This document shows, in pieces, positions 5,392-19,638 of a stretch of 35,789 nt of DNA. The stretch is from a virus: IMG/VR virus record IMGVR_UViG_3300031825_000393, positions 1 through 35,789 of that record; one strand, written 5' to 3'. The translations under genes were made by a program, and so were the position numbers. Within the stretch, counting starts at the first letter, position 1. Each line of letters opens with the position of its first letter. The notes under the pieces are model-generated. The model was not told the origin of the DNA. It ran no database searches and worked only from the letters and a program-made list of their open reading frames with translations.

Positions 5392-5437
5392 CGGGGCGGA
5401 CCATGCCCCGCGCCCAAGCCCCTGATCATTGGCGTCT

Positions 5438-5461
5438 ATTTGGATAGCCGCCTGTCCAAAT
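5438..5461. promoter_or_regulatory. Late-operon dyad 1, between divergent P and O
   Basis: ATTTGGA (5438-5444), a 10-base spacer TAGCCGCCTG and TCCAAAT (5455-5461) form a perfect 7-bp dyad. The spacer and arms are almost the same as in two other copies before J and V. P2 also has its divergent late promoters between P and O, each with an Ogr-binding dyad. The centre is 58 bp from the P start codon and 105 bp from the O start codon. Identification as the Ogr site is inferred. Confidence 0.75.
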
Positions 5462-5464
5462 GCA

Positions 5465-5498
5465 GGGGCTTGAGCATGTCAGCCCAACGCCCCTTTTT
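5465..5498 (+). promoter_or_regulatory. Stem-loop with T-run in the leader of gene O
   Basis: GGGGC (5465-5469) pairs with GCCCC (5489-5493), with a further imperfect inner stem, and TTTTT follows at 5494-5498. It looks like an intrinsic terminator or attenuator but lies directly after the late dyad and 56 bp before gene O, where full termination would silence the head genes. It may only be a leader structure. Confidence 0.4.
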
Positions 5499-5554
5499 CT
5501 GGTCCCGTCAACGCCTAGCCGCGCCGCCAGCAATCAAGGGAACCGGAACCGACC

Positions 5555-6403
5555 ATGGCAAAGAGCAAATTTTTCCGCGCTTTCGTAGAAGGCTTCACCG
5601 CCAGCGACGGTCGCAAGATCGAGGCGTCGTGGATTGACGACATCGTCGCCACCTTCAACGCGGAAACCTACACGCCGCGCATCAATATCGAACATATCAA
5701 GGGCTACAGCCCCGAACCGCCGTTCAACGGCTATGGCGATGTTGTCGCGGTCAAGGCCCAGACCGACGAACTGACGATCGACGGCCAGACCGTTCGCCGC
5801 CGCGCCCTCTATGTGCAGGTCGAGCCCAATGATCAGCTGATCGCCATGCGCGCCAAGGGCCAGAAGCCCTTCCCATCGGTCGAAATCGCGCCCGACTTCG
5901 CGGGCACCGGTAAGGTTGGACTGGTCGGCCTCGGCCTGACCGACAATCCTGCCTCCCTCGGCACCGAAGCGTTTAATTTTTCCGCGCTCAAGCCGATGTT
6001 CGACGCCCGCAAATCCTCGCCCAACAATCTGTTTTCCGAAGCCTTCGAGGCGGTGGAAATCGAACTGGAGGAAGCACCGGTGGACGGCACCGGCATCGCC
6101 GCCGCCATCGTCTCCGGCTTCGCGAGCCTTGCCGCCAAGTTCACCGGCGGCAGCGACGACAAGCCCAAGGCGCAGGAACAGGAAAAGCCCAAGCCTGCCA
6201 ATGACAACAGCTTCGACATCGCCGCTTTCAGCGCCGGGATTGCCGAGCAGGTCGCCGCCGCCGTGAAGCCCGCCAATGATGCAGTGACCAAGATCCAGGG
6301 CGATTTCGCCGCGCTGGTCGCCAAGCTGGAATCGACCGAACAGACCGGCTTTTCGCGCGCACCCGCGACCGGCGGTTCCAACGCGATCCAGACCAACTGC
6401 TGA
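5555..6403 (+). CDS. O: Capsid scaffold and maturation protease, P2 gpO family
   Basis: Guides procapsid assembly and cleaves itself and other head proteins. The product has 282 residues, as in P2 gpO (about 284). The serine-protease triad known for gpO (Asp19, His48, Ser107) is matched by Asp18 (ASDGRK), His47 (NIEHIKG) and Ser108 (FPSVEI). The C-terminal part (about 170-260) is rich in Ala, Glu, Lys and Pro, as expected for the scaffold region. A GGGAACCGGAA stretch precedes the ATG. It heads the rightward head operon O-N-M. Confidence 0.95.
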   Translation: MAKSKFFRAFVEGFTASDGRKIEASWIDDIVATFNAETYTPRINIEHIKGYSPEPPFNGYGDVVAVKAQTDELTIDGQTVRRRALYVQVEPNDQLIAMRAKGQKPFPSVEIAPDFAGTGKVGLVGLGLTDNPASLGTEAFNFSALKPMFDARKSSPNNLFSEAFEAVEIELEEAPVDGTGIAAAIVSGFASLAAKFTGGSDDKPKAQEQEKPKPANDNSFDIAAFSAGIAEQVAAAVKPANDAVTKIQGDFAALVAKLESTEQTGFSRAPATGGSNAIQTNC

Positions 6404-6445
6404 TCCTCGCCGCCGCCCGCCTCAACACCTTGGAGTAACCCCCAC

Positions 6446-7498
6446 ATGCGTCGTGAAACCCGTCTCGCGTTCAACGCCTATCTGGGCCAGATCGCTCGCC
6501 TCAATGGCGTGGAACTCGCCACCGAAAGCTTTTCGGTCGCCCCCACCGTCCAGCAGACGCTGAGCCAGCTGATCCAGCAGTCCAGCGGCTTCCTCCAGAA
6601 GATTTCGTTCGAAACCGTGCCCAATCAGGAAGGCCAGAAGGTCGGCGTCGGCGTGACGCGCCCGCTCGCTGGCCGCGTCAACACGCGCGGCGGCACCCGC
6701 CGGGCACCCACCGATCCGACCGACACCAGCGATGGCGGCAACTATCGTTGCGAGCAGACCTTTTACGATCACGCGATCAGCTGGGAACGCCTCGACGCAT
6801 GGCGCCACAAGCCCGAATTCCAGACGCTGGTCCGTGACGTCATCGTGCAGCGTCAGGCGCTCGACCGCATCACCATCGGTTTCCACGGCACGTCGGTCGC
6901 CGCCACCACCGATCTGGTCGCCAATCCGCGCCTTCAGGACGTCAACAAAGGCTGGCTGCACAAGATCCGCCAGTATGCGCCGGAGCGCGTGCTGGACGAC
7001 GGCGCGCTGTCGGGCGCGGGCAAGGCGATCTATGTCGCCGACACCGACGACGCGACCAAGCGCGACTATGTCAATCTCGACGCGCTGGTGAAGGACGCCG
7101 CCGCCGGGCTGCTCGATGAATGGCATCAGGAAGCGGATGACCTTGTCGTCATGATCGGTCGCGATCTGGTCCACGACAAGCAGATGCCGATCGTCAACAA
7201 GGCGGGCAACACCCCGACCGAGCAGCTGGCGCGTGACATCATCCTGCGCGGTGCCAATCAGGTCGGCGGCTATTATGCCGAGCGCGTTCCCGACTTCCCG
7301 ACCGCGACCCTGCTCATCACCAGCTACAAAAATCTGGCGATCTACGAGCAGGAGGAATCGCGCCGCCGCTACGTCAAGGACGAACCGGAACTGACCCAGA
7401 TCGCCAACTATGAAAGCGTCAACGAGGCTTTCGTGGTCGAAGATTACGGCAAATGCGCCCTGATCGAAAACATCGTCATGGGGCCGAAGCCCGCCTGA
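6446..7498 (+). CDS. N: Major capsid protein, P2 gpN family
   Basis: Forms the icosahedral shell. At 350 residues it is close to P2 gpN (about 357). The N-terminus RRETRLAFNAYLGQIARLNG and the following LSQLIQQSSGFLQKI are characteristic of the family, and the C-terminal segment EAFVVEDYGKCALIENI is the expected end. GGAG lies just before the start. It is 42 bp downstream of the scaffold gene, in the usual O-N-M order. The N-terminal part is probably trimmed by gpO, as in P2; no cleavage site is assigned here. Confidence 0.95.
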   Translation: MRRETRLAFNAYLGQIARLNGVELATESFSVAPTVQQTLSQLIQQSSGFLQKISFETVPNQEGQKVGVGVTRPLAGRVNTRGGTRRAPTDPTDTSDGGNYRCEQTFYDHAISWERLDAWRHKPEFQTLVRDVIVQRQALDRITIGFHGTSVAATTDLVANPRLQDVNKGWLHKIRQYAPERVLDDGALSGAGKAIYVADTDDATKRDYVNLDALVKDAAAGLLDEWHQEADDLVVMIGRDLVHDKQMPIVNKAGNTPTEQLARDIILRGANQVGGYYAERVPDFPTATLLITSYKNLAIYEQEESRRRYVKDEPELTQIANYESVNEAFVVEDYGKCALIENIVMGPKPA

Positions 7499-7544
7499 TC
7501 GGCGCGGCCCTAACGCTATTCCCTCCATCTGACAGGACACGTCA

Positions 7545-8342
7545 ATGAGCCTCGCTCGTCGCAATCGTGATCGCATTCTCGCTGCCCAGATCGTCAACGC
7601 AGCGGCTGCACCTGCTGGTGGAGGGGGTGTCGCCCCTGCTGCTGCGCCTCTCCCGGCAGCAGGGGCGTCAAACGCCTCGCTGGCTGAACGCGCCGCTGCG
7701 CAGATTGTCCTTCGGCTGACGCATGACCTGCGCCGCCTCAAGGAAATCCGTTCGATCGACATGAAGATCGCCGCTAAGCGCGAAATGCTGCCAGAATATG
7801 TCGATTGGGTCGCCGGGGTCGTTGGCGCAGATGCTGGCGTGGGCACCGGCCTCGCCGCCGAAGTGGTCCCGACGGTCATGGTCTGGCTGATCGACGTCGC
7901 CTCCTATGGCGAAGCCCTCGACCTGCTGCCCTTCATGCTGGCGCATAAGGTCGCTATGCCGAGCCGATACCAGCGCGACGCGGCGACGATCGCTATTGAG
8001 GAAATCGCCGACGCCGCGAACAAGGCGCAGGGCGCGGGCGCTGATTTCCCGCTCGAAATTCTCGCCCGCGTGGGTGAACTGACCGCCGCCTGCGATATTC
8101 ACGATCAGGTCCGCGCCAAGCTGCTCAAGGCGACCGGCACGGCTCAGCTGGCCGCCGCCGAAGATCTGGCGGCGGATGAAGGCAAGCCCGCGCTGGAAGC
8201 CGCGCTGGCGACCATGACCGAAGCCCAGCGCCTGCATGACCGGATCGGCGTCAAGGACAAGATCAAGCGGGCGAACAAGCTGCTGGCGGCCATAGCCGCC
8301 GCGTCCGCACCCAACAACGAACAGGGCGGGACCGCCGCCTGA
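7545..8342 (+). CDS. M: Terminase small subunit, P2 gpM family
   Basis: Partner of the gpP ATPase; in P2, gpM contributes the endonuclease that cuts cos. The 265-residue product starts with a basic segment (SLARRNRDRI), followed by an Ala/Pro-rich linker at about residues 20-45, then the conserved gpM core around LKEIRSIDMKIAAKREMLPEY and the alpha-helical region VMVWLIDVASYGEALDLLPF. Its place directly after the major capsid gene is the P2 order. With the cos-like sequence near 1913 and the P gene, the packaging machinery looks complete. Confidence 0.93.
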   Translation: MSLARRNRDRILAAQIVNAAAAPAGGGGVAPAAAPLPAAGASNASLAERAAAQIVLRLTHDLRRLKEIRSIDMKIAAKREMLPEYVDWVAGVVGADAGVGTGLAAEVVPTVMVWLIDVASYGEALDLLPFMLAHKVAMPSRYQRDAATIAIEEIADAANKAQGAGADFPLEILARVGELTAACDIHDQVRAKLLKATGTAQLAAAEDLAADEGKPALEAALATMTEAQRLHDRIGVKDKIKRANKLLAAIAAASAPNNEQGGTAA

Positions 8343-8465
8343 CAGGCTCGCCCCCGGCGCTCAGGGGCGGATCGCGCGATGCGGGAGGCTTTCGAGCCGT
8401 AGGGCCGCACTCTGCCCCGATCCTCACCCCTGTAAGCCGGTGGGCCGAAATCGGAGGAATCATCA

Positions 8466-8693
8466 ATGCTCGCTCTCGCTTGGCTGATCATCAAGGCCGT
8501 CCTTCTGCTGATCATCATGGCGATCGGCGGCATCATGGTCGCCTTCGGCATCACTTTCCGCTTTGTCATGGGCTTGGAAGCGCGCCCCTCCACCATCGCG
8601 CGCTTCGCATGGCTCTGCTGGGGTCTGGCGGGCCTCGGCGTCCTCGCCTTCGTCTATGCCGGTTCCGGCCTCGCCCAGATCGCGATGGCATGA
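8466..8693 (+). CDS. Small two-segment membrane protein between M and L
   Basis: A 75-residue protein that is almost entirely hydrophobic, with one segment at about residues 5-30 and a second at about 46-72, separated by a short loop with Arg and Glu. GGAGG occurs about 10 bases before the ATG. It is translationally coupled to the next small gene (ATGA at 8690-8693). P2 has no gene between M and L, so this is an insertion in the head operon. It might be a holin or antiholin-like protein or a membrane-acting exclusion factor; there is no domain evidence for either. Confidence 0.65.
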   Translation: MLALAWLIIKAVLLLIIMAIGGIMVAFGITFRFVMGLEARPSTIARFAWLCWGLAGLGVLAFVYAGSGLAQIAMA

Positions 8694-8791
8694 CGGTTCG
8701 CGAGCGCATTGCCGCCTGCGCAATGGGCGGCCTTCTCGCTGCGATTCCCACCGTCTGGATCCTCCTGTTTTTTGAAGCGGTATTGCCATGA
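8690..8791 (+). CDS. 33-residue membrane protein
   Basis: A very short gene whose ATG overlaps the previous stop (ATGA) and whose TGA overlaps the start of gene L in the same way (8788-8791). The double overlap is the main reason to accept it. The product has a short charged head (MTVRERI) and a hydrophobic stretch from about residue 8 to 28 with a terminal Pro. The function is unknown. Confidence 0.6.
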   Translation: MTVRERIAACAMGGLLAAIPTVWILLFFEAVLP

Positions 8792-9270
8792 CCTTCGTCG
8801 CCCGCCCTTCCGCGTCTGAGATCGAACAGCCCCCGGCGGAAGAAACCGACGTCGTCAACGACGGATTCTTCCCGAACATTGCCCCGGCGGCTGTCCGGGA
8901 GGCCGCGAGGATCCCGACCAACATCACGCCCGCCCGCCTGCGCGCCGCCATCCTTGGCGCGATCATGACCGTGGAAATCGACCTGCGCGCATTCGCCGCG
9001 GCTTCCATCGCCGCAGGCCATGCCACGCTGGCCGCCGTTCCCGCGCCCCAGCTGGACGGGAAAAGCGTGCAGCTGATCCGCTACCACCGCGCCATCGCGC
9101 TCTATGCGAAGGCCGAACTGATCGAGCGCCACCGGGATTTTGACACCTCGGCAGCGGGCGGCGGTCAGGCGGACGAACTCACCCCGTCCATCGGCGAACT
9201 GCGCCGCGACGCGCAGCACGCGGTCCGCGACATGCTGGGCCGCACGCGGACTGTCGTGGATCTGATCTGA
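8788..9270 (+). CDS. L: Head completion protein, P2 gpL family
   Basis: Closes the packaged head at the portal vertex and prepares it for tail joining. The product has 160 residues (P2 gpL about 169). The start FVARPSASE and the following FFPNIAPAAVREAARI, TPARLRAAI and YHRAIALYAKAELIERHRDFDTS segments are family-typical. It overlaps both neighbours by one to four bases and stands before gene X, as in P2. Confidence 0.93.
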   Translation: MTFVARPSASEIEQPPAEETDVVNDGFFPNIAPAAVREAARIPTNITPARLRAAILGAIMTVEIDLRAFAAASIAAGHATLAAVPAPQLDGKSVQLIRYHRAIALYAKAELIERHRDFDTSAAGGGQADELTPSIGELRRDAQHAVRDMLGRTRTVVDLI

Positions 9271-9494
9271 TGGCGTCCGAGCAGCGCCTTGTCGCCCGAT
9301 CAGGGGACAAGCTGGATCTGCTGCTGTGGCGCGATGCCGGGCTTGGTCCAAGCGAGATTTCCCGCGTCTGCGACGCCAATCCGGGGCTGGCCGATCTTGG
9401 CCCCATTCTTCCGCTCGGCACCATCGTCATCGTGCCCGCAACCGCCGACGCAAGCGCAACCCGCGTGCGCCCCCTCATTCAGCTTTGGGATTGA
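9270..9494 (+). CDS. X: Tail protein X, P2 gpX family
   Basis: Small tail assembly protein with a LysM-like fold. The 74-residue product has the family pattern: a short N-terminus (ARSGDKLDLLLWRDAG), a middle ANPGLADLGPILPLGTIVIVP and an acidic/aromatic end (IQLWD). It overlaps the end of gene L (TGATG) and precedes the lysis genes, as in P2. Confidence 0.92.
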   Translation: MASEQRLVARSGDKLDLLLWRDAGLGPSEISRVCDANPGLADLGPILPLGTIVIVPATADASATRVRPLIQLWD

Positions 9495-9497
9495 TCC

Positions 9498-9830
9498 ATG
9501 GACCTCCGCCACCTTCTGGAATCCGCCGCCGAATTGATCGGATCGCTAACCCCGTCGCTGATCGGTTCAGCGGTCGCGCAGGCATGGAAGCCCGCCCTGC
9601 CTTTCCGCCAGCGTTTCCTCCAGTGGGTCGTTGGATCGACGGTCAGCTATTACGCGACCATCGCCATCATCGCCGTGACGGGATGGAACCACTTCGCCGC
9701 GCAGTCGATCGCGTTCGCCGTCGCGCTGCTCGCCTTCGACGCCACCCCCCGCATCGCCAAAGCCGCGATCGACACGCTGACCAGCGTGCCGGGCCGCATC
9801 GCTGACCGCTTCCTCCCTGAGAAGGACTGA
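9498..9830 (+). CDS. Holin-like membrane protein
   Basis: A 110-residue protein located where P2 has its holin gene Y, immediately before the endolysin. It has hydrophobic segments at about residues 43-64 (VVGSTVSYYATIAIIAVTG) and 67-85, plus a weaker N-terminal segment and a basic C-terminal tail (ADRFLPEKD), compatible with a small holin. Sequence resemblance to P2 gpY is not apparent, so the call rests on topology and context. Confidence 0.7.
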   Translation: MDLRHLLESAAELIGSLTPSLIGSAVAQAWKPALPFRQRFLQWVVGSTVSYYATIAIIAVTGWNHFAAQSIAFAVALLAFDATPRIAKAAIDTLTSVPGRIADRFLPEKD

Positions 9831-9832
9831 CC

Positions 9833-10285
9833 ATGCAGCTGTCGCCCAATTTTAGCCTGGCTGAATTCGTCGCCTCCGCGACGGCGTCCGCCCAGCGCAT
9901 CGACAACACCCCCAGCGCCGCCCAGATCGCGGCCATGAAGACGCTCTGCGCAAAGGTGCTGGAGCCGCTTCGCGCCCATTTCGGTAAACCGGTCCACCTT
10001 ACGTCGGGTTTCCGCTCGCCCAAGCTGTGCCTCGCCGTCGGTTCGACCGTGGACAGCCAGCACGCCAAGGGCGAGGCGGCCGATATCGAGATCCCCGGCG
10101 TCGATAATGTCACGGTCGCCACCTTCATCCGCGACCGCATGGCTTTTGACCAGCTGATCCTCGAAAATTACACGCGGGGCCAGCCCAACAGCGGGTGGAT
10201 CCACGTCAGCTATCGCGATGGAAGGCTGCGCAAAGACGTGCTGACCTATTCGCGCCGGGCCTATTTCAAGGGGCTACTGGCATGA
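9833..10285 (+). CDS. M15-family peptidase endolysin
   Basis: Peptidoglycan peptidase that should release progeny by cutting peptide stems or cross-links. The 150-residue product contains the zinc-ligand pattern of M15 peptidases: His77 and Asp84 in SQHAKGEAADIE and His124 in WIHVSY, preceded by LTSGFRSPKLC. It is a single catalytic domain without signal peptide, so it needs the neighbouring holin-like protein to reach the wall. It replaces the lysozyme-type gene K of P2. The start lies two bases after the preceding stop. Confidence 0.92.
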   Translation: MQLSPNFSLAEFVASATASAQRIDNTPSAAQIAAMKTLCAKVLEPLRAHFGKPVHLTSGFRSPKLCLAVGSTVDSQHAKGEAADIEIPGVDNVTVATFIRDRMAFDQLILENYTRGQPNSGWIHVSYRDGRLRKDVLTYSRRAYFKGLLA

Positions 10286-10677
10286 TCGGGAGATCGCACC
10301 TCGCTATGGCCGCCGCGCTGGCCGCCTGCACCGCAGGAATCGGCGGCTTTTTCTACGGCACCAGCGTCGGCAGCGCGCAGGAACAGGCCGCGCAGAAACG
10401 CGCCGACGATGCGCGGGAGGCCGAACGCAAGAAGCTACAGGCCCAGCTGGACGCCTCGACCGAGCGCGCACAGGCGGCGGAATATGCCCGGCAGGGCAAT
10501 GTCAGGGAAATCTACAATGAAACTCAGAAGGTCATCGAAAAGCCGGTCTATCGCAATCTGTGCGTTGATGCTGACGGCGTCGGCCTGCTCGACCGCGCCG
10601 CAGCAACGGCCAACAGCGAAGATCTCTGGGGGATTGCTGGCGACACCCGCCCCATTGCCGAAGGTGCAGCGGACTGA
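10282..10677 (+). CDS. Inner-membrane spanin (Rz-like)
   Basis: Inner-membrane part of the spanin complex that fuses inner and outer membranes at the end of lysis. The 131-residue product has an N-terminal membrane anchor (about residues 8-30), then a long charged coiled coil rich in Ala, Gln, Glu and Lys (about 35-75) and a conserved-looking end with KVIEKPVYRNLCVDADGVGLLDRA, typical of phage Rz-like proteins. It overlaps the peptidase stop by four bases. Its 3' part contains the start of an Rz1-like gene in another frame. Confidence 0.83.
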   Translation: MIGRSHLAMAAALAACTAGIGGFFYGTSVGSAQEQAAQKRADDAREAERKKLQAQLDASTERAQAAEYARQGNVREIYNETQKVIEKPVYRNLCVDADGVGLLDRAAATANSEDLWGIAGDTRPIAEGAAD

Positions 10678-10807
10678 CGCGGGCGAGATGACCGGGGCGC
10701 AATGCCTCGGCAGTCTCACCAGCATCTATGACGTCGCGGGCCAGATCCGCGCCACCCTGATCGAATTGCAGGCACAGGCCCGCATGGCGAACGGAAAGGC
10801 GGACTGA
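10517..10807 (+). CDS. Outer-membrane spanin lipoprotein (Rz1-like)
   Basis: Starts inside the Rz-like gene in the +1 register and runs 130 bases past its end. The 96-residue product has a basic N-terminus (MKLRRSSKSRS), a hydrophobic stretch (IAICALMLTASA) and a lipobox cysteine in TASAC at residue 24, as expected for a lipoprotein. AGGGAA lies about 9 bases before the ATG at 10517; an in-frame ATG at 10499 is an alternative. Rz1 proteins partner with Rz in the periplasm. This one is long for Rz1, with a helical C-terminal half. Confidence 0.78.
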   Translation: MKLRRSSKSRSIAICALMLTASACSTAPQQRPTAKISGGLLATPAPLPKVQRTDAGEMTGAQCLGSLTSIYDVAGQIRATLIELQAQARMANGKAD

Positions 10808-10809
10808 CG

Positions 10810-11328
10810 ATGCGCAAGGCCGACAGCCTGCGGCAATGGCTCACCGCCTTCCTGCCCGATCTGAAAACCCATCCTGACCGCCTCCAGATCTATGTGGAAG
10901 GCGGCCAGATCGGCACGCGCCAGTCCCGCACGCTGTCATTCGTCTATGCCTATACGCTCAAGGTCGGAATCTGGGAGTTTGCGGGCGACGCCGACAAGAT
11001 CATGGTGCCGATGCTGGCATGGATCGAGAAGGAACAACCCCAGCTGCTGCGCCGCTCCGATGGTCAGCCCTTCACCTTCGAAGCCGAACTGCTCGATGGC
11101 GAAGCGTCGGACATCCTGATCTCGATCGACCTGACCGAAACCGTCCTTGTCGTGCCCCGCGCCGATGGCAGCGGCTATGACGTCGAGCATCCGGCGGAGC
11201 CGAATTTCGCCGATGCCTTCGACGGCGTCACGGCCTCATTCCTGCAAGGCTTCGGCAATACCGAACTGCTGGCTGAGACGTCCGATCCCGACGCTGATCT
11301 GACCCCAGCGATTCCGCCGAACGCATGA
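10810..11328 (+). CDS. R: Tail completion protein, P2 gpR family
   Basis: Needed to finish the head-proximal end of the tail. The 172-residue product begins with MRKADSLRQWLTAFLPDLK, the typical gpR start, and continues with LQIYVEGG and a core around YTLKVGIWEFAGDADKIMVP. P2 gpR has about 155 residues; the extra length is a C-terminal acidic tail. It overlaps gene S by four bases. Confidence 0.92.
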   Translation: MRKADSLRQWLTAFLPDLKTHPDRLQIYVEGGQIGTRQSRTLSFVYAYTLKVGIWEFAGDADKIMVPMLAWIEKEQPQLLRRSDGQPFTFEAELLDGEASDILISIDLTETVLVVPRADGSGYDVEHPAEPNFADAFDGVTASFLQGFGNTELLAETSDPDADLTPAIPPNA

Positions 11329-11996
11329 GCGAGGATCTCGCCGAAATCGAGCGGATCGCCGGGGCGCTGATCCGCAGCCTGTCGTCAGGCCAGCGCCGCA
11401 CCCTCATGCGCCGCATGGCCCGCACCTTGGCCCAGAGCCAGCGCGAGCGCATCGCCGCCCAGCGCCAGCCTGACGGCTCGAAATTCGAGGCGCGCAAGGA
11501 AAAGGCCCCGCCGGTGTCGGGCCGGGGCGCGACATGCTTCCTATATCCTTCCGGCGGCGGCGGCGAGCCGCGCAAGGTCATCATGAAATCTTTCGCCTGG
11601 ACGACGGGCCGCATGATGACCGGCTTCGATATTGAGGCAGGCGGGATCCGCTCATTCGAGTTCGACAAGGTCGTAAAGTGGCTCCCGGTGCCGGAGGAGC
11701 ATCGCAACGCGGGCGGCAGCAGCCTGCGTCGTCGCGGGGGCCTTCGGCGTCGCGCGATGTTCCGGCGCTTGGCGAGCGGGCGATTCCTACGCACAGGCGC
11801 GGATGATCAGGGCTTCTGGGTTGGCTTTTCGGGCAAGGTGTCACAGATCGCGGGCGTTCACCAATATGGCCTGCGCGACAAACCGTCGCTGCGGGCGCAG
11901 GCAGTCTCCTACCCCAAGCGCGAACTGCTGGGCGCTACGGCAGCGGATCGAGAGCAGCTGCTTGACCTTCTCTACACTCATGTTGCTCAAGCATGA
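11325..11996 (+). CDS. S: Tail completion protein, P2 gpS family
   Basis: Acts with gpR to complete the tail. The 223-residue product has the gpS pattern: an N-terminal helical part with LRR-type basic stretches (QRRTLMRRMARTLAQSQRERIAAQRQPDGS) and a C-terminal HQYGLRDKPSLRAQAVSYPKRELLG segment. It is longer than P2 gpS (about 150), mainly because of a central insertion. It is the last structural gene before the XRE/ImmA cargo and probably ends this late operon. Confidence 0.92.
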   Translation: MSEDLAEIERIAGALIRSLSSGQRRTLMRRMARTLAQSQRERIAAQRQPDGSKFEARKEKAPPVSGRGATCFLYPSGGGGEPRKVIMKSFAWTTGRMMTGFDIEAGGIRSFEFDKVVKWLPVPEEHRNAGGSSLRRRGGLRRRAMFRRLASGRFLRTGADDQGFWVGFSGKVSQIAGVHQYGLRDKPSLRAQAVSYPKRELLGATAADREQLLDLLYTHVAQA

Positions 11997-12037
11997 GCCG
12001 CCGCGAAGGCTCCTTAAAATCGTGTTAACCAAACCTC

Positions 12038-12072
12038 TTGCGGATGTTAGCAAATTCTGCTAAATAGTTAAC
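12038..12072 (+). promoter_or_regulatory. Promoter and operator of the XRE/ImmA pair
   Basis: A perfect dyad TTAGCA-N5-TGCTAA at 12047-12063 lies between a possible -35 (TTGCGG, 12038-12043) and an extended -10 (TG, one base, then TAAATA at 12061-12066) with a 17-bp spacer. GTTAAC occurs at 12024 and 12067 around it. Placement of the dyad over the core promoter suggests autorepression by the XRE protein. Confidence 0.6.
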
Positions 12073-12157
12073 AGCGTTGCAGGCAGGGGGGTTTTTAGAT
12101 GGTCAGGAACAATGCGAGCATGACGCGGGGGCGTCGCATTTCTGAAAGGAAATTGGC

Positions 12158-12517
12158 ATGACCCCATTTGGCAAGGCTGTAAGGCATCTGAGGATCGAGC
12201 GGGAGATGTTGCTCGGTCAGATGGCAGATTGCCTCGGCATCACGTCCGCTTACGCGAGCCAGATTGAAACTGGCAAGCGCCCCATTCCGGCAGGTTATGT
12301 GGAGCGGATCATCAACCTTTACCAGCTGGACGCTGAGCAGGCGCAGGGCCTGCGCAATGAAGCGATCCAATCCACGAATACCTTTAACATCAACATTCCG
12401 GCGGATGCGCAACGCGCAGACCGGGTGCTTGCCAGCGAACTCGCGACCGAATTTGCCCGGCTGACGCCCGAAGCCAAAAGCCGGATCCTGAAAATCGTGA
12501 AGGGTGAAGGGAAATGA
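12158..12517 (+). CDS. XRE-family helix-turn-helix regulator
   Basis: A 119-residue DNA-binding protein with an N-terminal helix-turn-helix (about residues 5-60): FGKAVRHLRIEREMLLGQMADCLGITSAYASQIETGKRPI. The C-terminal part is a short helical tail. AAGGAAA precedes the ATG. It overlaps the ImmA/IrrE metallopeptidase gene by four bases, a widespread pairing in which the peptidase relieves repression by cutting the regulator. The dyad at 12047-12063 is a likely operator. The less GC-rich DNA here and the position between late operons mark it as cargo. Confidence 0.87.
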   Translation: MTPFGKAVRHLRIEREMLLGQMADCLGITSAYASQIETGKRPIPAGYVERIINLYQLDAEQAQGLRNEAIQSTNTFNINIPADAQRADRVLASELATEFARLTPEAKSRILKIVKGEGK

Positions 12518-13059
12518 TTGGCAGTCAGACTGTTGTGGCTCCTCTCAGCCGCGACGCGATCGAAACCTTCGCTCTCGCGTGGCGACGGGCTTTGGGGTTT
12601 GACGACGCCCAACCGGTCGACATGCTCAAGATCATCGAGTTCATCCTTCCGATGATCTGGGACGATTACACCTACGAGATTGTGGACGACGCTGAGTTGG
12701 GCGAGGCTGAAGCAACGACATCCACCACCAATCGGCATATTCGTATCGGGCTAGGGCCTTACGAGCGCGCGATGCACGGCATTTCCAGATATGCCTTCAC
12801 GCTTGCTCATGAACTTGGCCATCTGCTCCTTCACACAGGCAAGCCGACTTCGTTGGCGCGGGGGACGGTTAAACCGTTCCTCAATCCCGAATGGCAGGCA
12901 GACACTTTCGCGGGGGCGTTCCTCGTCCCCGCAGGTGAAGCTCGCAAATGTTTGTCGGTCGAAGAGATTGCGGCTCGTTTCAGGATCAGTCAGGCCGCCG
13001 CTCAGGTCCGAGCAGATGTCCTGAAAATACCCGGTCTTTCAAAGAAAAAGGGGCACTGA
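12514..13059 (+). CDS. ImmA/IrrE-family metallopeptidase
   Basis: Zinc endopeptidase expected to cleave the XRE regulator encoded just upstream. The 181-residue product has the zinc motif HELGH at residues 99-103 (FTLAHELGHLLLH) and a downstream PEWQAD segment with Glu126, matching the third zinc ligand of this family. It is coupled to the regulator gene by an ATGA overlap. Together they resemble the ImmA-ImmR switch of ICEBs1 and toxin-antitoxin-like pairs. It is probably not needed for virion assembly, because it lies between late operons and has its own promoter. Confidence 0.88.
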   Translation: MIGSQTVVAPLSRDAIETFALAWRRALGFDDAQPVDMLKIIEFILPMIWDDYTYEIVDDAELGEAEATTSTTNRHIRIGLGPYERAMHGISRYAFTLAHELGHLLLHTGKPTSLARGTVKPFLNPEWQADTFAGAFLVPAGEARKCLSVEEIAARFRISQAAAQVRADVLKIPGLSKKKGH

Positions 13060-13208
13060 GAAAACCCAGCACCCCGAAAGTTTTTCCTGCTCAGAACCGT
13101 CGCCCCTGTGTAGGTGCGCGTCCCGAACCAGAACTTAAAGCAGAGTGCATATAGCACATTCGGTACGGAACGCAAAGATCATCGGGCGACTAAATAGCGA
13201 GGCTTCTC

Positions 13209-13337
13209 ATGTCTCCACTGGCAGCTCCAGGCAAACGCCTGATCTTCCGTCCGTGGATCACAAAGAAGGATGGCTCGCGCTTGTATGCCCGTCAGGTCGG
13301 CAAGCGCGCGTTCCCGATTTGGGTCGATAAGGACTAA
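13209..13337 (+). CDS. Conserved-looking 42-residue basic protein
   Basis: An ATG at 13209 preceded by GAGG (13199-13202) opens a 42-codon frame ending in TAA at 13335. The product starts MSPLAAPGKRLIFRPW and ends AFPIWVDKD; it is basic and compact. Small proteins with an RLIFRPW-type start and a PIWVD-type end are, from memory, common as hypothetical proteins in alphaproteobacteria, but no function is known. A longer frame through the same bases (13145-13330) has no such features and is rejected. It stands between the ImmA gene and the J operon. Confidence 0.55.
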   Translation: MSPLAAPGKRLIFRPWITKKDGSRLYARQVGKRAFPIWVDKD

Positions 13338-13348
13338 TGTAAAGGTCG

Positions 13349-13376
13349 GCGGGCTACCTGCATCAGGGTAGCCCGC
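13349..13376. terminator. Hairpin between cargo and J operon
   Basis: GCGGGCTACC (13349-13358) and GGTAGCCCGC (13367-13376) form a perfect 10-bp stem with an 8-base loop, 12 bp after the 42-residue gene. No T-run follows, so intrinsic termination is uncertain, but a transcription boundary is plausible because late dyad 2 begins 21 bp further on. Confidence 0.5.
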
Positions 13377-13396
13377 AGATCACAGCTTCTGACTGC

Positions 13397-13420
13397 ATTT
13401 GGATAGCCGCCTGTCCAAAT
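13397..13420. promoter_or_regulatory. Late-operon dyad 2, before gene J
   Basis: ATTTGGA (13397-13403), the same 10-base spacer TAGCCGCCTG as dyad 1, and TCCAAAT (13414-13420). It lies 36 bp before the first possible start of gene J; its centre is about 58 bp from the alternative start at 13466. A GGGGCA...TGCCCC hairpin follows (13424-13453). It is assigned as a late activator site because it is shared with dyads 1 and 3. Confidence 0.75.
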
Positions 13421-13456
13421 ACAGGGGCATGGCGCACCCCCATAGCCTGCCCCGAC

Positions 13457-14359
13457 ATGGCGGCCATGGCCGATGCAACCTTCACCGCCGTTGATCTGTC
13501 GCGCCTTCCCGCGCCCGACGTCATAGATCCGCTCGATTTCGAGACGATCTATGCGGATGCCGTCGCATATATGCAGACGCTGATGCCGGAATTTGTAAGC
13601 CGGGACAGCGATCCGGCATCCAAGCTGCTCCAGACCTTCGCCTATTTCGCCCAGCTGCTGCGCCAGCGCGTCAATGACGCGGCCCGCGCCGTCATGCCCG
13701 CCTATGCCGTGGGCGCGGATCTCGACAATATCGCCGCCCTCTTCGGCATCACCCGTCTGACCATCACCCCGGCGGATGAAGTGCTGGGGATCCCGGCTGT
13801 CATGGAAAGCGACGCCGATTTCCGCCGCCGCATGGTGCTGGCCCCCGAAGGCTATTCCGTGGCTGGGCCGGAAGGGGCCTATATCTTCCACGCTCTGTCG
13901 GCGGACCCCGATGTGCTGGACGCCAGCGCAACCAGTCCCGACCCCGGCGAAGTGCTGGTGTCGGTCCTGTCACGCACTGGGTCTGGCGCGGCATCCGCCG
14001 GGCTGGTCGCCACCGTCGCCGCCTATGTGTCCGACGAGACGCGCCGCCCGCTGACCGACTTTGTCACCGTCCAGTCCGCCGCGATCGTCAATTACAACGT
14101 CAACGCCACCATCACGACGTTCAGCGGCCCCGATGGCAGCGTGGTTCTCGACGCGGCCCGCGCCAAGTTGGATGACTATGTCGCCTCCAGCCACCGTCTT
14201 GGCCGTGACATCACCCGATCCGGCATCTTCGCCGCTCTGCATGTCGAGGGCGTGCAGAATGTTGTCCTGACGTCCCCGGCTGCGGACATCGTCGTTTCGC
14301 GCGAGCAGGCCCCCTACTGCACCGGAATCACGCTCACCTACGCGGGGACGGGCGAATGA
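13457..14359 (+). CDS. J: Baseplate assembly protein, P2 gpJ family
   Basis: Forms the wedge part of the baseplate. The 300-residue product matches P2 gpJ in length (302). Family-typical segments include FETIYADAVAYMQTLMPEF, SDPASKLLQTFAYFAQLLRQRVNDAARAVMPAYAVGADLDNIAALFG and the later FRRRMVLAPEGYSVAGPEGAYIFHALSADP. No Shine-Dalgarno is evident; an in-frame ATG at 13466 would give MADATF as the start. It overlaps gene I by four bases. Confidence 0.94.
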   Translation: MAAMADATFTAVDLSRLPAPDVIDPLDFETIYADAVAYMQTLMPEFVSRDSDPASKLLQTFAYFAQLLRQRVNDAARAVMPAYAVGADLDNIAALFGITRLTITPADEVLGIPAVMESDADFRRRMVLAPEGYSVAGPEGAYIFHALSADPDVLDASATSPDPGEVLVSVLSRTGSGAASAGLVATVAAYVSDETRRPLTDFVTVQSAAIVNYNVNATITTFSGPDGSVVLDAARAKLDDYVASSHRLGRDITRSGIFAALHVEGVQNVVLTSPAADIVVSREQAPYCTGITLTYAGTGE

Positions 14360-14907
14360 CCTATCCGTCCATTCTGCCCCCCGCATCGACCGATCTTGAG
14401 AAGGCGCTGGAGCAGGTCGTTGCGCGCCTGCTCGACATCGCCGTGTTGGTGAGGGAAGTCTGGTCGCCAACCAACTGCCCCAGCGCGCTGTTGCCATGGC
14501 TGGCGTGGGGCCTGTCGCTCGATAACTGGTCGAGCGATTGGCCGGAAGGCATCAAGCGCGAGCGCGTCCGCAAGGCCATCTCCATCGCACGCCAGAAGGG
14601 CACGGCAGCATCCGTGCGCGGTGTCGTCCAGAGCTTTGGCGGCTCGGTCGCAATTCGCGAATGGTGGCAGATGGAGCCGAAAGGCGACCCTTTCACATTC
14701 AGCCTTGTCCTCAATCTTGACCAGAACGGCGCGCCCGCATCGGCGGCCTTTGTCGATCAGGTCATCGCAGAAGTCAGCCGCGCCAAGCCGGTGCGCAGCC
14801 ACTTCACCTTCACCCAGGGCATCACCGCGAAGGCCAGCATCGGCCTGATCGCGGCTGTTCGCCCGACCATCTACGCCCGCCTGTCCTGCACGGCACCGGC
14901 GGCCTGA
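14356..14907 (+). CDS. I: Tail/baseplate protein, P2 gpI family
   Basis: Baseplate protein that links the wedge to the fibres. The 183-residue product has the gpI hallmarks: SILPPASTDLEKALEQVVAR near the start, CPSALLPWLAWGLSLDNWS, and a KGTAASVRGVVQSFGG segment followed by WWQMEP. P2 gpI has about 176 residues. It overlaps J and precedes the fibre gene by 11 bp, as in P2. Confidence 0.94.
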   Translation: MTYPSILPPASTDLEKALEQVVARLLDIAVLVREVWSPTNCPSALLPWLAWGLSLDNWSSDWPEGIKRERVRKAISIARQKGTAASVRGVVQSFGGSVAIREWWQMEPKGDPFTFSLVLNLDQNGAPASAAFVDQVIAEVSRAKPVRSHFTFTQGITAKASIGLIAAVRPTIYARLSCTAPAA

Positions 14908-14918
14908 CCGGAGGAATC

Positions 14919-17366
14919 ATGGCCCTTACCGCTATCGTCACCAATGCGGGCCGCGCCGCGCTTGTAAATGCCAGCAACACCGGCACCGCGCCCGTCACCA
15001 TCGCGCAGGTCGGCCTGACCGCCACCGCCGTCGTCCCCGGCGTCGGCATTACGGCACTGCCCGGCGAATATAAGCGCGTCGCCACGATCTCCGGTGATGT
15101 CGTGGCCGACGACACCATCCACCTGATCGTTCGCGACGAAAGCGCGGATGTTTTCACGGTCCGCAGCTTCGCGCTTTATCTGGCCGATGGCACCTTGTTC
15201 GCCGTTTACGGGCAGGCTGGCGTCATTCTGGAGAAGTCGGCGCAGGCCATGATGCTGCTGGCGATCGACGTGCAGTTCGCCGACGTGGCCGCCGCCATGC
15301 TGACCTTCGGCAACGCTAATTTTCTCAATCCGCCCGCCACCACCGAAATACAGGGCGTGGTGGAACTGGCAACTGTAGGGGAAGCGCAGGCAGGCATTGA
15401 TGCGCTGCGTGCGCTCACCCCTGCCGCCGCCAAGGCTGCCATTCTTGGCTGGCTGCTGGCGCAGGACGGTTCGGGCAGCGGCCTCGACGCCGATCTTCTC
15501 GATGGGCAGGACGGCAGCTATTATTCAAATATCCCCCAGCGGCTCGGTTACACGCCCGTCAATAAGGCGGGAGACACGATGACCGGCAGCTTGAGCCTTG
15601 TCTTTGCCGGAGGCCCAGCGCTCACCCTCAATTCTTCGGGAGTGGCCATCGGGAAGCTCACGATGCAGAACGATGGCAACCTCATGCTCTACCGCAACGC
15701 TGGGAGCGGAGATGCCGCCGTGTTCGGCGTAAACAGCCAAACTGGTCCATTCACAGTGTATATGCCGATGACGCGGCAGGGCAACACTGTGTGGGACGCA
15801 GGCAATGATGGCAGCGGCTCCGGCCTGGACGCCGATCTACTCGACGGGCAGGATGGCAGTTATTATTCCAACATCACCCAGCGCCTCGGCTTTACGCCTC
15901 TCAACAAAGCAGGGGACACGGCCTCCGGCAGGATCGGATTTACCGGCGGCGTGACGGGGAATAACTCGCTTGCCACCGCGACCTCGAACCTTGGCGAGAT
16001 TGAGGTGCGCGGTAACGGAAACGGTGCCGCGATGATGACTTTCCATCGTCCTAACTCGCGGGCTGTCTATTTCGGCTTGGACACGGACAACAGCCTGAAA
16101 ATAGGCGGGTGGAGCCTCGGCGCTACCGCCTATACGATGTGGCATTCGGGCAATGATGGTGCTGGCTCCGGCCTCGATGCCGATTTGCTCGACGGCTATC
16201 AGGCATCGCAGTTCATGCGGAACAACAACAGTGGATGGGTCGCGTCGGAGGAAGGCACTCCGCGCTTTTTCTTCTCGGCTAGTTCCAGCACTTATGCGCG
16301 CATCAATACCTCGTTCCGCTGGCAGAACACGGCAAGCTCTGATGTGGCGTCGCTAGATGAGAGCGGCAATATCTGGCTTAATGGCCAGATTGATACGACC
16401 CGCGTCCTTTGTCGGGCGAATGGGGACGGGCAGGCCGTCAAAATCGGCGATGACGCTTGGCTGGGCGACGTGAATATCTCCAACGGCCTGCGCATCACCG
16501 GCGTTCAGAATGCGGATCGCGGATATCTTTGTTTCGGGAACGCGGACGTGACCGTGCTGGGTCGGATCGGAACGGGACCGCTGACTTATAACGGCTATAC
16601 GCTCTGGCATGCAGGTAACGATGGCTCCGGTTCCGGCCTCGACGCCGATCTTCTCGACGGCCAAGACGGCAGCTATTATTCCAACGTCACTGCGCGGCTA
16701 GGCTATACGCCCGTCAACAAGGCGGGCGATACTATCAGCGGGCAGCTTACGGCGGGCGGATTGGTCAACAATTCGTCGCGCACCTATTTCGGCCGCGATG
16801 GCGGTGGGTGGCATTGGTTCGCGGGCGCGGGCCTTCCAGCGGAACCCGGTAGCCTCGCGATCGGATTTGCGAGCGATGGCACAAACATCACGACCATCAA
16901 TTTCATGATCAACGGCGGCGCGAAATTGCAGCTGTCCAGCAGCGGCGCGACGATCAGCGGAAACGCCGTCTGGCATGCTGGAAATGATGGCTCCGGCTCT
17001 GGCCTAGATGCCGATTTGATCGACGGATATCAGGCCAGCGATCTCGCTAAGATGGCCGATTTCGCAAACAATCTCTCCGCTGCCGGTTATCAGAAGCTGG
17101 CCGGGGGGGCGATCCTGCAGTGGTGCACCACAGCGACGCAGCAAAATGTCGAAACAACCACGACGGCCACTTTCCCGATCCAGTTCCCCAACGCCGTGCT
17201 GGATGTCCAGCTGACTACCCGCGTCGATATCGCCAGTGTCGAAGCGGATACTTGGTATCAGCTGGTGGGCGACCCGTCGTTGAGTGGATGCACTGTCATG
17301 CGCGCGCGCTCGGACAATGACGCAGACCGCCCCTCCTACTGCCGCATCTTCGCCCTCGGTCGATAA
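14919..17366 (+). CDS. H: Tail fibre protein, P2 gpH-like, with repeated collar modules
   Basis: Receptor-binding fibre. The N-terminal 150 residues (ALTAIVTNAGRAALVNASNTG through ATTEIQGVVELAT) are the conserved tail-collar attachment domain found in P2-type fibres. The shaft holds five modules beginning DGSGSGLDADL, at about 15465, 15807, 16155, 16620 and 16986; three continue GQDGSYYSN and a YTPVNKAGDT-like stretch, two continue GYQAS. Each is introduced by a WHAGN- or WDAGN-like phrase. The 815-residue chain ends in a globular region (about 700-815) that probably holds the receptor-binding tip. GGAGG precedes the ATG. Confidence 0.93.
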   Translation: MALTAIVTNAGRAALVNASNTGTAPVTIAQVGLTATAVVPGVGITALPGEYKRVATISGDVVADDTIHLIVRDESADVFTVRSFALYLADGTLFAVYGQAGVILEKSAQAMMLLAIDVQFADVAAAMLTFGNANFLNPPATTEIQGVVELATVGEAQAGIDALRALTPAAAKAAILGWLLAQDGSGSGLDADLLDGQDGSYYSNIPQRLGYTPVNKAGDTMTGSLSLVFAGGPALTLNSSGVAIGKLTMQNDGNLMLYRNAGSGDAAVFGVNSQTGPFTVYMPMTRQGNTVWDAGNDGSGSGLDADLLDGQDGSYYSNITQRLGFTPLNKAGDTASGRIGFTGGVTGNNSLATATSNLGEIEVRGNGNGAAMMTFHRPNSRAVYFGLDTDNSLKIGGWSLGATAYTMWHSGNDGAGSGLDADLLDGYQASQFMRNNNSGWVASEEGTPRFFFSASSSTYARINTSFRWQNTASSDVASLDESGNIWLNGQIDTTRVLCRANGDGQAVKIGDDAWLGDVNISNGLRITGVQNADRGYLCFGNADVTVLGRIGTGPLTYNGYTLWHAGNDGSGSGLDADLLDGQDGSYYSNVTARLGYTPVNKAGDTISGQLTAGGLVNNSSRTYFGRDGGGWHWFAGAGLPAEPGSLAIGFASDGTNITTINFMINGGAKLQLSSSGATISGNAVWHAGNDGSGSGLDADLIDGYQASDLAKMADFANNLSAAGYQKLAGGAILQWCTTATQQNVETTTTATFPIQFPNAVLDVQLTTRVDIASVEADTWYQLVGDPSLSGCTVMRARSDNDADRPSYCRIFALGR

Positions 17367-17376
17367 GGAAGACATC

Positions 17377-17760
17377 ATGCCGCTCTATTTCAGCCCAGCC
17401 AGTGCTGCCTTTTACGACGATGGCTTTCATTCGATCATTCCGGCAGACGCTCTGGAGATCAGCCAAGCGCGCCACGCCGAATTGATGGAAGAGCAGGGCA
17501 CAGGGCGCGTCATCGCAGCCGGACCCGATGGCCTTCCGATCACTCTCGATCCGCCCGCTCCATCGGATGACCAGCTGCTGGCGTGGATGCGCAGGCGGCG
17601 CAATCGCCTCCTGGCTGAATGCGATCATACGCAGATGCCCGACATCACTCTGTCGGAAACCCAGCGCGAAGCTTGGCGGGAGTACCGGCAGGCTCTCCGC
17701 GATCTGCCCGAAACGACCAATGACCTTACGGCCATCGAATGGCCGGCACCTCCCGCCTGA
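17377..17760 (+). CDS. Tail fibre assembly protein-like (gpG position)
   Basis: Probable chaperone for folding or trimerising the fibre. The 127-residue product begins PLYFSPASAAFYDDGFH, carries a linker with LDPPAPSDDQLLAWMRRRRNRLLAECD, and ends in a helical part with ETQREAWREYRQALRDLPE, a pattern common to phage tail-fibre assembly proteins. AAGGAA lies 6 bases before the ATG at 17377; the longer frame to 17284 only overlaps the fibre gene. The position right after the fibre is the P2 gene G position. Confidence 0.85.
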   Translation: MPLYFSPASAAFYDDGFHSIIPADALEISQARHAELMEEQGTGRVIAAGPDGLPITLDPPAPSDDQLLAWMRRRRNRLLAECDHTQMPDITLSETQREAWREYRQALRDLPETTNDLTAIEWPAPPA

Positions 17761-17771
17761 AAGGACCATCC

Positions 17772-18029
17772 ATGACTGACCTGAAATACAAGATCGGCGC
17801 GTTCAACAGCGAAAACCGGACAGTGCCCGTCACCTTCACCAGCGGCGACATCAGCCACGAACGAACCGTCAACGCGGTGCTGAAGGATGACGGCAGCTAT
17901 GATCGCACCGGCACCAAGGCTCGCGTCGAGGAAGTGGCGCGCGGCGTCGCTCACAAGATCGGCCTTGGCGTCATCACCGTGCCACTGCCGGAACCGGAAA
18001 TGCCTGCAGTCGAACCGTCAGCCGAATAA
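17772..18029 (+). CDS. Small conserved phage protein after fibre genes
   Basis: An 85-residue protein starting MTDLKYKIGAFNSENRTVPVTFTSGDISHERTVNAVL and ending in a Pro/Glu-rich tail. AAAGGA precedes the ATG at 17772. It is the last gene of the J-I-H operon and lies about 100 bp before the terminator. I do not recognise a family; it could be a fibre accessory or a second assembly factor. No membrane segment or signal is present. Confidence 0.7.
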   Translation: MTDLKYKIGAFNSENRTVPVTFTSGDISHERTVNAVLKDDGSYDRTGTKARVEEVARGVAHKIGLGVITVPLPEPEMPAVEPSAE

Positions 18030-18035
18030 AGACCG

Positions 18036-18058
18036 GCGGCGGCTATGAACGCCGCCGC
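18036..18058. repeat. GC-rich stem-loop after the fibre operon
   Basis: GCGGCGGC (18036-18043) and GCCGCCGC (18051-18058) pair with a 7-base loop directly after the last fibre-operon gene. There is no T-run. It may protect the mRNA 3' end or assist termination with the stronger hairpin at 18128. Confidence 0.45.
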
Positions 18059-18127
18059 TCCCCCTTTGCGGAGGGGGCTTGGGATGTCCCCACATCTCCA
18101 AACCGCGAGCCTGCACTCGCACTCTCA

Positions 18128-18150
18128 GGGCGGCGCGCCCGCCCGTTTTT
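18128..18150 (+). terminator. Rho-independent terminator of the J-I-H operon
   Basis: GGGCGG (18128-18133), loop CGCGC and CCGCCC (18139-18144), then G and five T residues (18146-18150). It separates the fibre operon from the methylase gene. Confidence 0.75.
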
Positions 18151-18200
18151 GAGTTCCCTCCGTGGCTTGCCGCGTCGGGACATCGTGCAGGATTTCCTAC

Positions 18201-19019
18201 ATGTCTACCCCCTTTGTTCTCGTTCGCCCCGTTTCGCCCGTCGCCGGATATATCGGCGGAAAGCGCAACCTTTCCCGGCGGATATGCGCCATCATCGATA
18301 GCATCCCGCACAGCAGCTATGCGGAGCCGTTCGTGGGCATGGGCGGCATCTTTCTGCGCCGCACGCGCCGCCCCCGCGCCGAAGCGATCAACGACATTTC
18401 CGGCGACGTCGCGACGCTGTTCCGCTGCCTTGCGGAGCATTATCCCTATCTGATCGACATGCTGCGATTCCGCGTTGCAAGCCGCGCCGAGTTCGAACGG
18501 CTGCTGGGGCAGGATCCCGACCGCCTGACCGACCTGCAGCGCGCGGTGCGCTTCCTCTACGTCCAGCGCCTCGCATTCGGCGGCAAGGTAAGGGGCCGGG
18601 GCTTTGGCGTCGATGCAGCATCCCCGGCGCGGTTCGACGTCGGCAAGATCGAACCCATGCTGGCAGAAGTGCATGAACGCCTGCAATCCGTCGTCATAGA
18701 GCGCCTGCCCTATGGCGAATTCATCCGCCGCTATGACCGCGACGGCGCGCTGTTCTACCTCGATCCGCCCTATTGGGCGTGCGAGCGCGACTATGGCGCG
18801 GACGTTTTCGGGCGCGACGACTTCGCCGCGCTCGCCGATCAGCTGGCCGGGATCAAGGGCCGCTTCCTGATGTCGCTCAATGACAATCAGGGCGTGCGCG
18901 ACACCTTCGCCCGCTTCACCATCGCGCCGATCGAGACCACCTATAGCGTGGGCGGCAAGCCGACGAAGGCCGGGGAAGTCTTGATCAGCAATTTCCCGCT
19001 GCCCGCGAACGACGTCTGA
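18201..19019 (+). CDS. Dam-type adenine-N6 DNA methyltransferase
   Basis: Adenine methyltransferase of the D12 class, likely to protect phage DNA from host restriction or alter regulation; the recognition sequence cannot be read here. The 272-residue product has YIGGKR (17-22), FVGMGG (44-49, cofactor binding) and the catalytic DPPY (188-191), in the order of the Dam family. The ATG at 18201 follows AGGA at a suitable distance; the frame to 18162 is less likely. It stands alone between a terminator (18128-18150) and late dyad 3 (19035-19058), so it is an accessory gene. Confidence 0.92.
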   Translation: MSTPFVLVRPVSPVAGYIGGKRNLSRRICAIIDSIPHSSYAEPFVGMGGIFLRRTRRPRAEAINDISGDVATLFRCLAEHYPYLIDMLRFRVASRAEFERLLGQDPDRLTDLQRAVRFLYVQRLAFGGKVRGRGFGVDAASPARFDVGKIEPMLAEVHERLQSVVIERLPYGEFIRRYDRDGALFYLDPPYWACERDYGADVFGRDDFAALADQLAGIKGRFLMSLNDNQGVRDTFARFTIAPIETTYSVGGKPTKAGEVLISNFPLPANDV

Positions 19020-19034
19020 TCGGCAACGCCCTGC

Positions 19035-19058
19035 ATTTGGATAGCCCCCTGTCCAAAT
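19035..19058. promoter_or_regulatory. Late-operon dyad 3, before gene V
   Basis: ATTTGGA (19035-19041), spacer TAGCCCCCTG (one base different from the other two copies) and TCCAAAT (19052-19058). Here the arms extend to 13 bp (CCCTGCATTTGGA, 19029-19041, with its complement at 19052-19064). The centre is about 55 bp before the start of gene V. Confidence 0.75.
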
Positions 19059-19101
19059 GCAGGGCCGCGAAAGGTCTGAGCGCCCGCGCCATGGTCCGCG
19101 C

Positions 19102-19638
19102 ATGGCAAGCACCCAAGATCCCGAACAGCAGGTCGGTGAAGCGATCCAGTATGGCGTGATCGCAACCGTCGATTATGCCAATGCCACCTGCACCGTCACG
19201 CTGGGCGACCTGACCACGGGCGAACTGCCGTGGGTGGCCCAGCGCGCGGGCGGGATGCGCTACTGGTCGCCGCCCACTGTCGGGGAACAGTGCGTCGTGC
19301 TGGCCCCGGAAGGTGATCTGGAAAACGGGCTGGTCGTTCTGGGCCTCTATTCCGACGACAACCCACCGCCGTCCAATGATCCCGATGTCGTTCAGATCGA
19401 CATGCCCGATGGCGCGTCGTTCAGCTACAACCATGCCACCCACGTCCTCGCTATCACGCTCCCCGCAGGCGGCACGGCCACGGTTGACGCCCCCGGCGGC
19501 ACCACATGGACCGGCGACATCAACCTTAGCGGCACTCTGACCGCCACGACGGACGTTATCGGCGGCGGCAAGAGCCTCAAGGGTCACAAGCACAGCGGCG
19601 TGCAGGCTGGCAGCGCGCAGACCGGGACGCCCGTCTGA
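19102..19638 (+). CDS. V: Baseplate spike protein, P2 gpV family
   Basis: Membrane-piercing spike at the tail tip. The 178-residue product has an N-terminal OB-fold region (IATVDYANATCTVTLGDLTTGELPWV, GMRYWSPPTVGEQCVVLAPEGDLENGLVVLGLY), a beta-helix-like repetitive part (about 95-150) and a C-terminal GHKHSG with His162 and His164. The same HxH motif binds iron at the P2 gpV tip. The ATG at 19102 was preferred over a frame beginning at 19057, which would start inside the late dyad. P2 gpV is longer (about 211). Confidence 0.93.
   Translation: MASTQDPEQQVGEAIQYGVIATVDYANATCTVTLGDLTTGELPWVAQRAGGMRYWSPPTVGEQCVVLAPEGDLENGLVVLGLYSDDNPPPSNDPDVVQIDMPDGASFSYNHATHVLAITLPAGGTATVDAPGGTTWTGDINLSGTLTATTDVIGGGKSLKGHKHSGVQAGSAQTGTPV

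Follow-up and report, generated by a model that had tools for sequence, protein, structure and literature searches.

Three copies of a palindrome stand at the late operons P/O, J and V

The window analysed here is the entire 35,789-nt IMG/VR viral record IMGVR_UViG_3300031825_000393, which carries the late genes of a P2-like phage of sphingomonad bacteria, among them P, J and V, identified with PHROGs as the terminase, the baseplate protein J and the baseplate spike, respectively (Table 1). We describe a palindrome, hereafter the dyad, that precedes these three genes and is a candidate target of the Ogr-type activator encoded by the same phage. Searching the full window length for ATTTGGA-N10-TCCAAAT yielded three exact matches, for a chance expectation, calculated from the base composition, of about 2 × 10−5 matches per window. 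No fourth copy was found in the window, even with up to three mismatches, and a dyad weight matrix run over the same length scored the three sites at 36.4–36.6 and the runner-up at 13.5. The dyads sit at the starts of late operons. Copies 1 and 2 have the same 10-nt spacer, from which that of copy 3 departs by one base, and no Shine-Dalgarno (SD) sequence was seen at the P, J and V starts of the window. The original prediction had announced three copies only (in the P/O gap, before J and before V), a nearly invariant spacer, centre-to-start distances of 58 (P), about 58 (J) and 55 bp (V) and the lack of an SD at these starts, all of which agree with the whole-window scan and the computed distances (Table 1).

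The presence of an Ogr homologue, also noticed earlier, was borne out by a match to PF04606 (E-value 2.6e-11; 43.7 bits for a cut-off of 26.3). The protein does not match the canonical Ogr finger C-X2-C-X22-C-X4-C, as its last interval is X5, like that of the closest relatives of the phage; the sister clade has X4. PF04606 was matched in 42 of 50 related records, the remainder being mostly fragments. No solved structure related to Ogr was found by sequence.

Table 1. Dyads, late genes, promoter-like elements and activator gene of the window.
Feature	Position	Strand	Remarks
P, terminase large subunit	3538..5391	-	58.5 bp between start codon and dyad centre
P promoter block CATGGTC, conserved and -10-like	5399..5405	-	
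Dyad copy 1	5438..5461		ATTTGGATAGCCGCCTGTCCAAAT; common to the divergent P and O promoters
CTTGAG, -35-like element of the O promoter	5469..5474	+	near-invariant; dyad centre +19.5 to +24.5
O, scaffolding protein	5555..6403	+	start about 105 bp from P/O dyad centre; predicted leader of about 50 nt with SD
GC-rich hairpin between upstream genes and the J dyad	13348..13376	+	without a T-run
Dyad copy 2	13397..13420		same sequence as copy 1; upstream of J
J promoter block GACATGG, conserved, in the -10 region	13454..13460	+	contains an alternative in-frame ATG (13457)
J, baseplate protein	13466..14359	+	57.5 bp between start codon and dyad centre
Dyad copy 3	19035..19058		one spacer base differs; upstream of V; 11-bp extended arms CTGCATTTGGA/TCCAAATGCAG
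V promoter block CATGGTC, conserved and -10-like	19090..19096	+	
V, baseplate spike/assembly protein	19102..19638	+	55.5 bp between start codon and dyad centre
Ogr/Delta-like zinc finger activator	29924..30220	+	finger C-X2-C-X22-C-X5-C

The layout recurs in sphingomonad phages at a fixed distance from the start codons

Relatives of the phage were gathered from viral contigs through their terminase (42 records were fetched), and about 50 prophages were also compared. A matching palindrome precedes P, J and V in nearly all of the 42 viral records, with centre-to-start distances of 56.5–62.0 bp for P (n = 41), 56.0–60.5 bp for J (n = 41) and 55.0–62.0 bp for V (n = 39). When all viral contigs were scanned with the dyad of the window, at the DNA level only, 19 stretches were returned; at the 18 new loci, every dyad adjoins P/O, J or V, at 55.5 bp from V, 56.5–57.5 bp from J and mostly 58.5 bp from P. 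Two P distances of 73.5 bp are extrapolated codon positions, and one of these two contigs (L006) has an in-frame ATG at 58 bp. As for the prophages, 43 of 49 loci were clear by our count, and cultured genomes with the layout belong to Sphingobium (including Sphingobium abikonense), several Novosphingobium, Sphingomonas and Sphingopyxis. The motif search in related prophages that had been proposed earlier thus shows that the layout recurs in sphingomonad prophages and viral records, nearly all sphingomonad relatives having a dyad before P, J and V at 55–62 bp. By the same procedure, no comparably strong dyad was found before P in Variovorax, Janthinobacterium and Pseudomonas prophages, and no clear dyad was found in G047 (56% identity in P).

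The P2-like element pZM36 of Zymomonas mobilis (CP023680, L184), also from the Sphingomonadales and endowed with an Ogr/Delta gene, has its own dyad at P (56 bp), J (57 bp) and V (57 bp). It differs from the window by its arms (TTCCCATCG/CGATGGGAA) and by being AT-rich, P and V each having a recognisable AATAAT. The V gene of pZM36 (around 7377) probably starts 30 nt upstream of the annotated codon, at an in-frame ATG located 57 bp from the dyad centre.

The arms of the dyad change jointly at the three sites

The consensus arms fall into 18 variants in 28 non-redundant phages, including ATTTGGAC, ATATGGAG, ATCGGGCG, ATTTCGCT and TCTTGTAG, as well as AATGGTAG, AATCGTAG, CTTGTGAA, AGGTGTGG and CCTGTGGA, among others. 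Inside a phage, the arms of the different sites are 0.934 identical, as compared with 0.482 when sites are permuted between phages, and none of 2000 permutations reached 0.934, while the identity of the 20-bp flanks of the dyads barely exceeds the background. Since the selection of sites favours similar ones, it was rerun on palindromicity alone, which agreed with the first choice for 81 of 84 sites (identity 0.90 versus 0.47), and on control regions shifted by 150–450 bp, where the best consensus reached about 0.70–0.73 versus 0.955 at the real sites. The simplest explanation of this concerted change is one diffusible reader per phage. Rather than the single "new Ogr specificity" of the original prediction, the dyad of the window represents one among no fewer than 18 variants of the arms in 28 related phages.

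A fourth copy of the phage's own dyad, mostly weaker, occurs about 1–1.2 kb past ogr in G007 (L106:1531), G017 (L124:779) and G039 (L178:1853), where it is possibly an extra Ogr-dependent promoter. No dyad copy was found past ogr in the window. G025 has a possible fourth dyad between J and V (L169:17759).

The sites share the register of the P2 Ogr sites, with other arms

The consensus of the P2 Ogr sites is TGT-N12-ACA (PMC3931495). The dyad of the window does not match this canonical sequence, as it reads TGG-N12-CCA, in the same register. According to the annotation of the P2 GenBank record, from which we took the site and start positions, a single activator site (3057–3087) serves both pO and pP, with start sites at 3016 (P) and 3127 (O). 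This site, like that of F, reads TGT-N12-CCA, so that the TGG half-site of the window is already used by P2 on one side. Hence, the earlier statement that the dyad differs from that of P2 holds for the arms, and not for the register. The centre of the P2 P/O site lies 55.5 bp from the P and O start sites alike, and transcription of V in P2 is annotated as beginning (10308) on the first base of its start codon. These annotated starts support, by analogy, the placement of dyads of this kind near −55.

The phage of the window resembles P2, with its late promoters PP, PO, PV and PF, in having a site common to the divergent P and O genes and another upstream of V, in the predicted distance of about 55 bp between centre and start, and in the Ogr-type activator. 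It differs from P2 in that its palindrome is much longer and nearly perfect, a site stands before J and none before FI, and the P start codon is 58.5 bp from the dyad centre instead of about 79 bp, so that the 23-nt leader of P2 would be lacking in the window. Closer in layout is Smp131 (PMC3931495), which also encodes an Ogr homologue and has its sites at the same three places (PP'/PO', PJ' and PV') because it shares the gene order, JIHG and V-W-F-to-D forming separate operons. However, Smp131 combines TGT-N12-ACA with C-X2-C-X22-C-X4-C, whereas the window combines TGG-N12-CCA with C-X2-C-X22-C-X5-C. The P/O, J and V layout is already on record for Smp131, and a V transcript beginning at the start codon is annotated in P2. 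In the P2-like phages phiRSY1 and phiRSA1, four late operons are likewise preceded by an altered Ogr site, but its motif is TGTTGT-N13-ACAACA and no fixed leaderless spacing was reported (PMC5694545). A literature search, with most subscription papers outside its reach, turned up no description of Ogr sites in phages of sphingomonads. As both the site sequence and the finger spacing (X5, not X4) depart from the canonical definition, we classify the system as a variant of the P2-type Ogr system.

P, J and V mRNAs are predicted to have almost no leader

An mRNA is regarded as leaderless when its leader does not exceed 5 nt (PMC7566282). Using the P2 calibration, with starts about 55–57 bp from the dyad centre, the predicted leaders of P, J and V measure 0–3 nt, and that of O about 50 nt. 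In the related genomes, SD words of at least four nucleotides at the start are found in 0 of 21 cases for P, 9% for J and 5% for V, as compared with 76% for O, 93% for N and 100% for both FI and FII. The P and V genes of the relatives display a CATGGTC or TGGCTAGGT block at the expected −10 place, and on the O side a near-invariant CTTGAG occupies the −35 place implied by a dyad at −55. In the AT-rich pZM36, AATAAT is found at −12 to −7 before P and at −11 to −6 before the V ATG located at 57 bp. The Z. mobilis strain harbouring pZM36 is the one for which 119 leaderless pairs of transcription start site and gene were reported, with the −10 consensus TANNNN (PMC7566282), showing that leaderless mRNAs are usable in the order Sphingomonadales. 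By analogy with P2, we propose that the P, J and V mRNAs are probably leaderless or nearly so, which would leave three of the four late operons with almost no leader. The earlier view that these mRNAs would be essentially leaderless if the dyad is at −55 thus extends to the whole clade, with its fixed distance, its lack of SD at P, J and V and its SDs at O, N, FI and FII.

A probable variant Ogr-type system and its alternatives

Judging from the sequences and from the analogy with P2, we consider it likely that the dyads belong to variant late promoters of the Ogr type, from which P, J and V would be transcribed into mRNAs with no leader or hardly any. We propose that the dyads are the upstream activator sites of PP/PO (one common site), PJ and PV, and that the phage's own Ogr-type zinc finger would bind the palindrome about 55 bp before the point where transcription starts, thereby bringing the RNA polymerase of the host to promoters whose −10 and −35 elements are poor. 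As the P, J and V start codons are 55–59 bp from the dyad centre, their mRNAs would start at the start codon or at most about 3 nt from it and be translated without an SD, and the leader of O, whose start is about 105 bp away, would be about 50 nt long and contain an SD. The arms would have been rewritten many times in the clade, always jointly at the three sites, as expected from one phage-encoded reader.

Several observations weigh against this proposal. The −10 blocks of the GC-rich phages match TANNNN poorly, and that of J is shifted by about 3 bp. GTG is the start codon of some V genes, which is less usual for leaderless mRNAs, and the J gene of the window has a second in-frame ATG (13457), 9 nt upstream. 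Furthermore, in Mantel tests, the dyad distances correlate with those of Ogr (rho 0.45) and as well or better with those of V, W and FI (rho 0.50–0.55), and the partial correlation between dyad and Ogr, given all structural genes, falls to rho 0.06 (p 0.20, n = 35), with a weak signal in the 17 nearest phages (rho 0.27, p 0.043). When only flanking genes are accounted for, co-variation with the distant Ogr is seen at the P/O and J sites (partial rho 0.26 and 0.29, p 0.001), and the V site showed none beyond its flanking genes. Ogr-specific co-variation, suggestive at P/O and J with respect to flanking genes, lost its specificity once right-arm genes were considered and was not retained. The dyad-Ogr co-variation, only partly separable from ancestry, appears compatible with Ogr as the reader without being decisive.

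Ogr could be replaced at these late-promoter sites by another phage or host regulator, a view to which the behaviour of V, W and FI lends weight, as does the presence in the phage of further DNA-binding proteins, namely a helix-turn-helix protein (12158–12517) and a GapR-like protein (PF10073; 33049–33444). We regard it as improbable, given that P2 Ogr works at sites of the same position, register and operons (PMC3931495), that most related records encode the PF04606 protein, and that the P/O and J sites co-vary with the distant ogr beyond their flanking genes. By analogy, the Ogr gene is the sole regulator with a precedent at these sites. What stands of the Ogr specificity claimed earlier is an encoded Ogr with sites at P2-like places; binding of the dyad by Ogr would follow by analogy, its signal not being cleanly separated from ancestry. 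Somewhat less remote, though still unlikely, is that Ogr activates these promoters and the leaders are normal, the true start codons being downstream or transcription starting further upstream, as might be read from the Zymomonas V gene annotated 30 nt downstream of its ATG at 57 bp; however, the conserved position of the P, J and V start codons relative to the dyad, the lack of SDs at these starts as opposed to O, N, FI and FII, and the P2 start sites all speak for the short leaders.

We rejected the reading of the dyads as RNA hairpins (terminators, or processing or attenuation sites) between operons, which is very improbable even though the V copy folds at −31 kcal/mol and the others at −15 to −17 kcal/mol. 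Copy 1 lies between divergent genes, neither of which needs a terminator there, no T-run follows the dyads, their distance to the start is fixed at 55–62 bp in about 40 phages, their arms change jointly at three sites, and a separate hairpin, possibly the end of the preceding operon, already exists before J (Table 1).

Returning to the variant Ogr-type system, its layout is already known from P2 and Smp131; what appears new is the concerted diversification of the operators together with the predicted, clade-wide leaderless architecture. We see an even chance that the sphingomonad P2-like phages repeatedly re-coded their Ogr specificity, each lineage having a private palindrome read by its own Ogr only, which would insulate late expression from co-resident prophages or satellites, with leaderless P, J and V mRNAs. 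The operator variants (at least 18), each paired with an activator of about 100 amino acids, would provide a natural series for decoding recognition by Ogr/Delta zinc fingers. The system would also offer a compact case of the operators of one regulator changing jointly at all its sites, and one in which the leaderless expression of structural genes can be tested in Alphaproteobacteria.

Other features of the window

A gene for a D12-class adenine methyltransferase (18162–19019), apparently late cargo, lies immediately upstream of the V dyad. The helix-turn-helix protein mentioned above forms a pair with an ImmA/IrrE-type peptidase (12158–13059), at a late-operon position flanked by the S and J genes. 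The 815-amino-acid gene at the tail-fibre (H) position contains five divergent direct repeats about 340–470 bp apart (15423–17027). Near the left end of the record, a 41-nt inverted repeat (1451–1739) is 83% complementary, with 207 nt between its arms. A tRNA-Tyr (ata) call (32215–32289), antisense within the primase gene, is probably a false positive.
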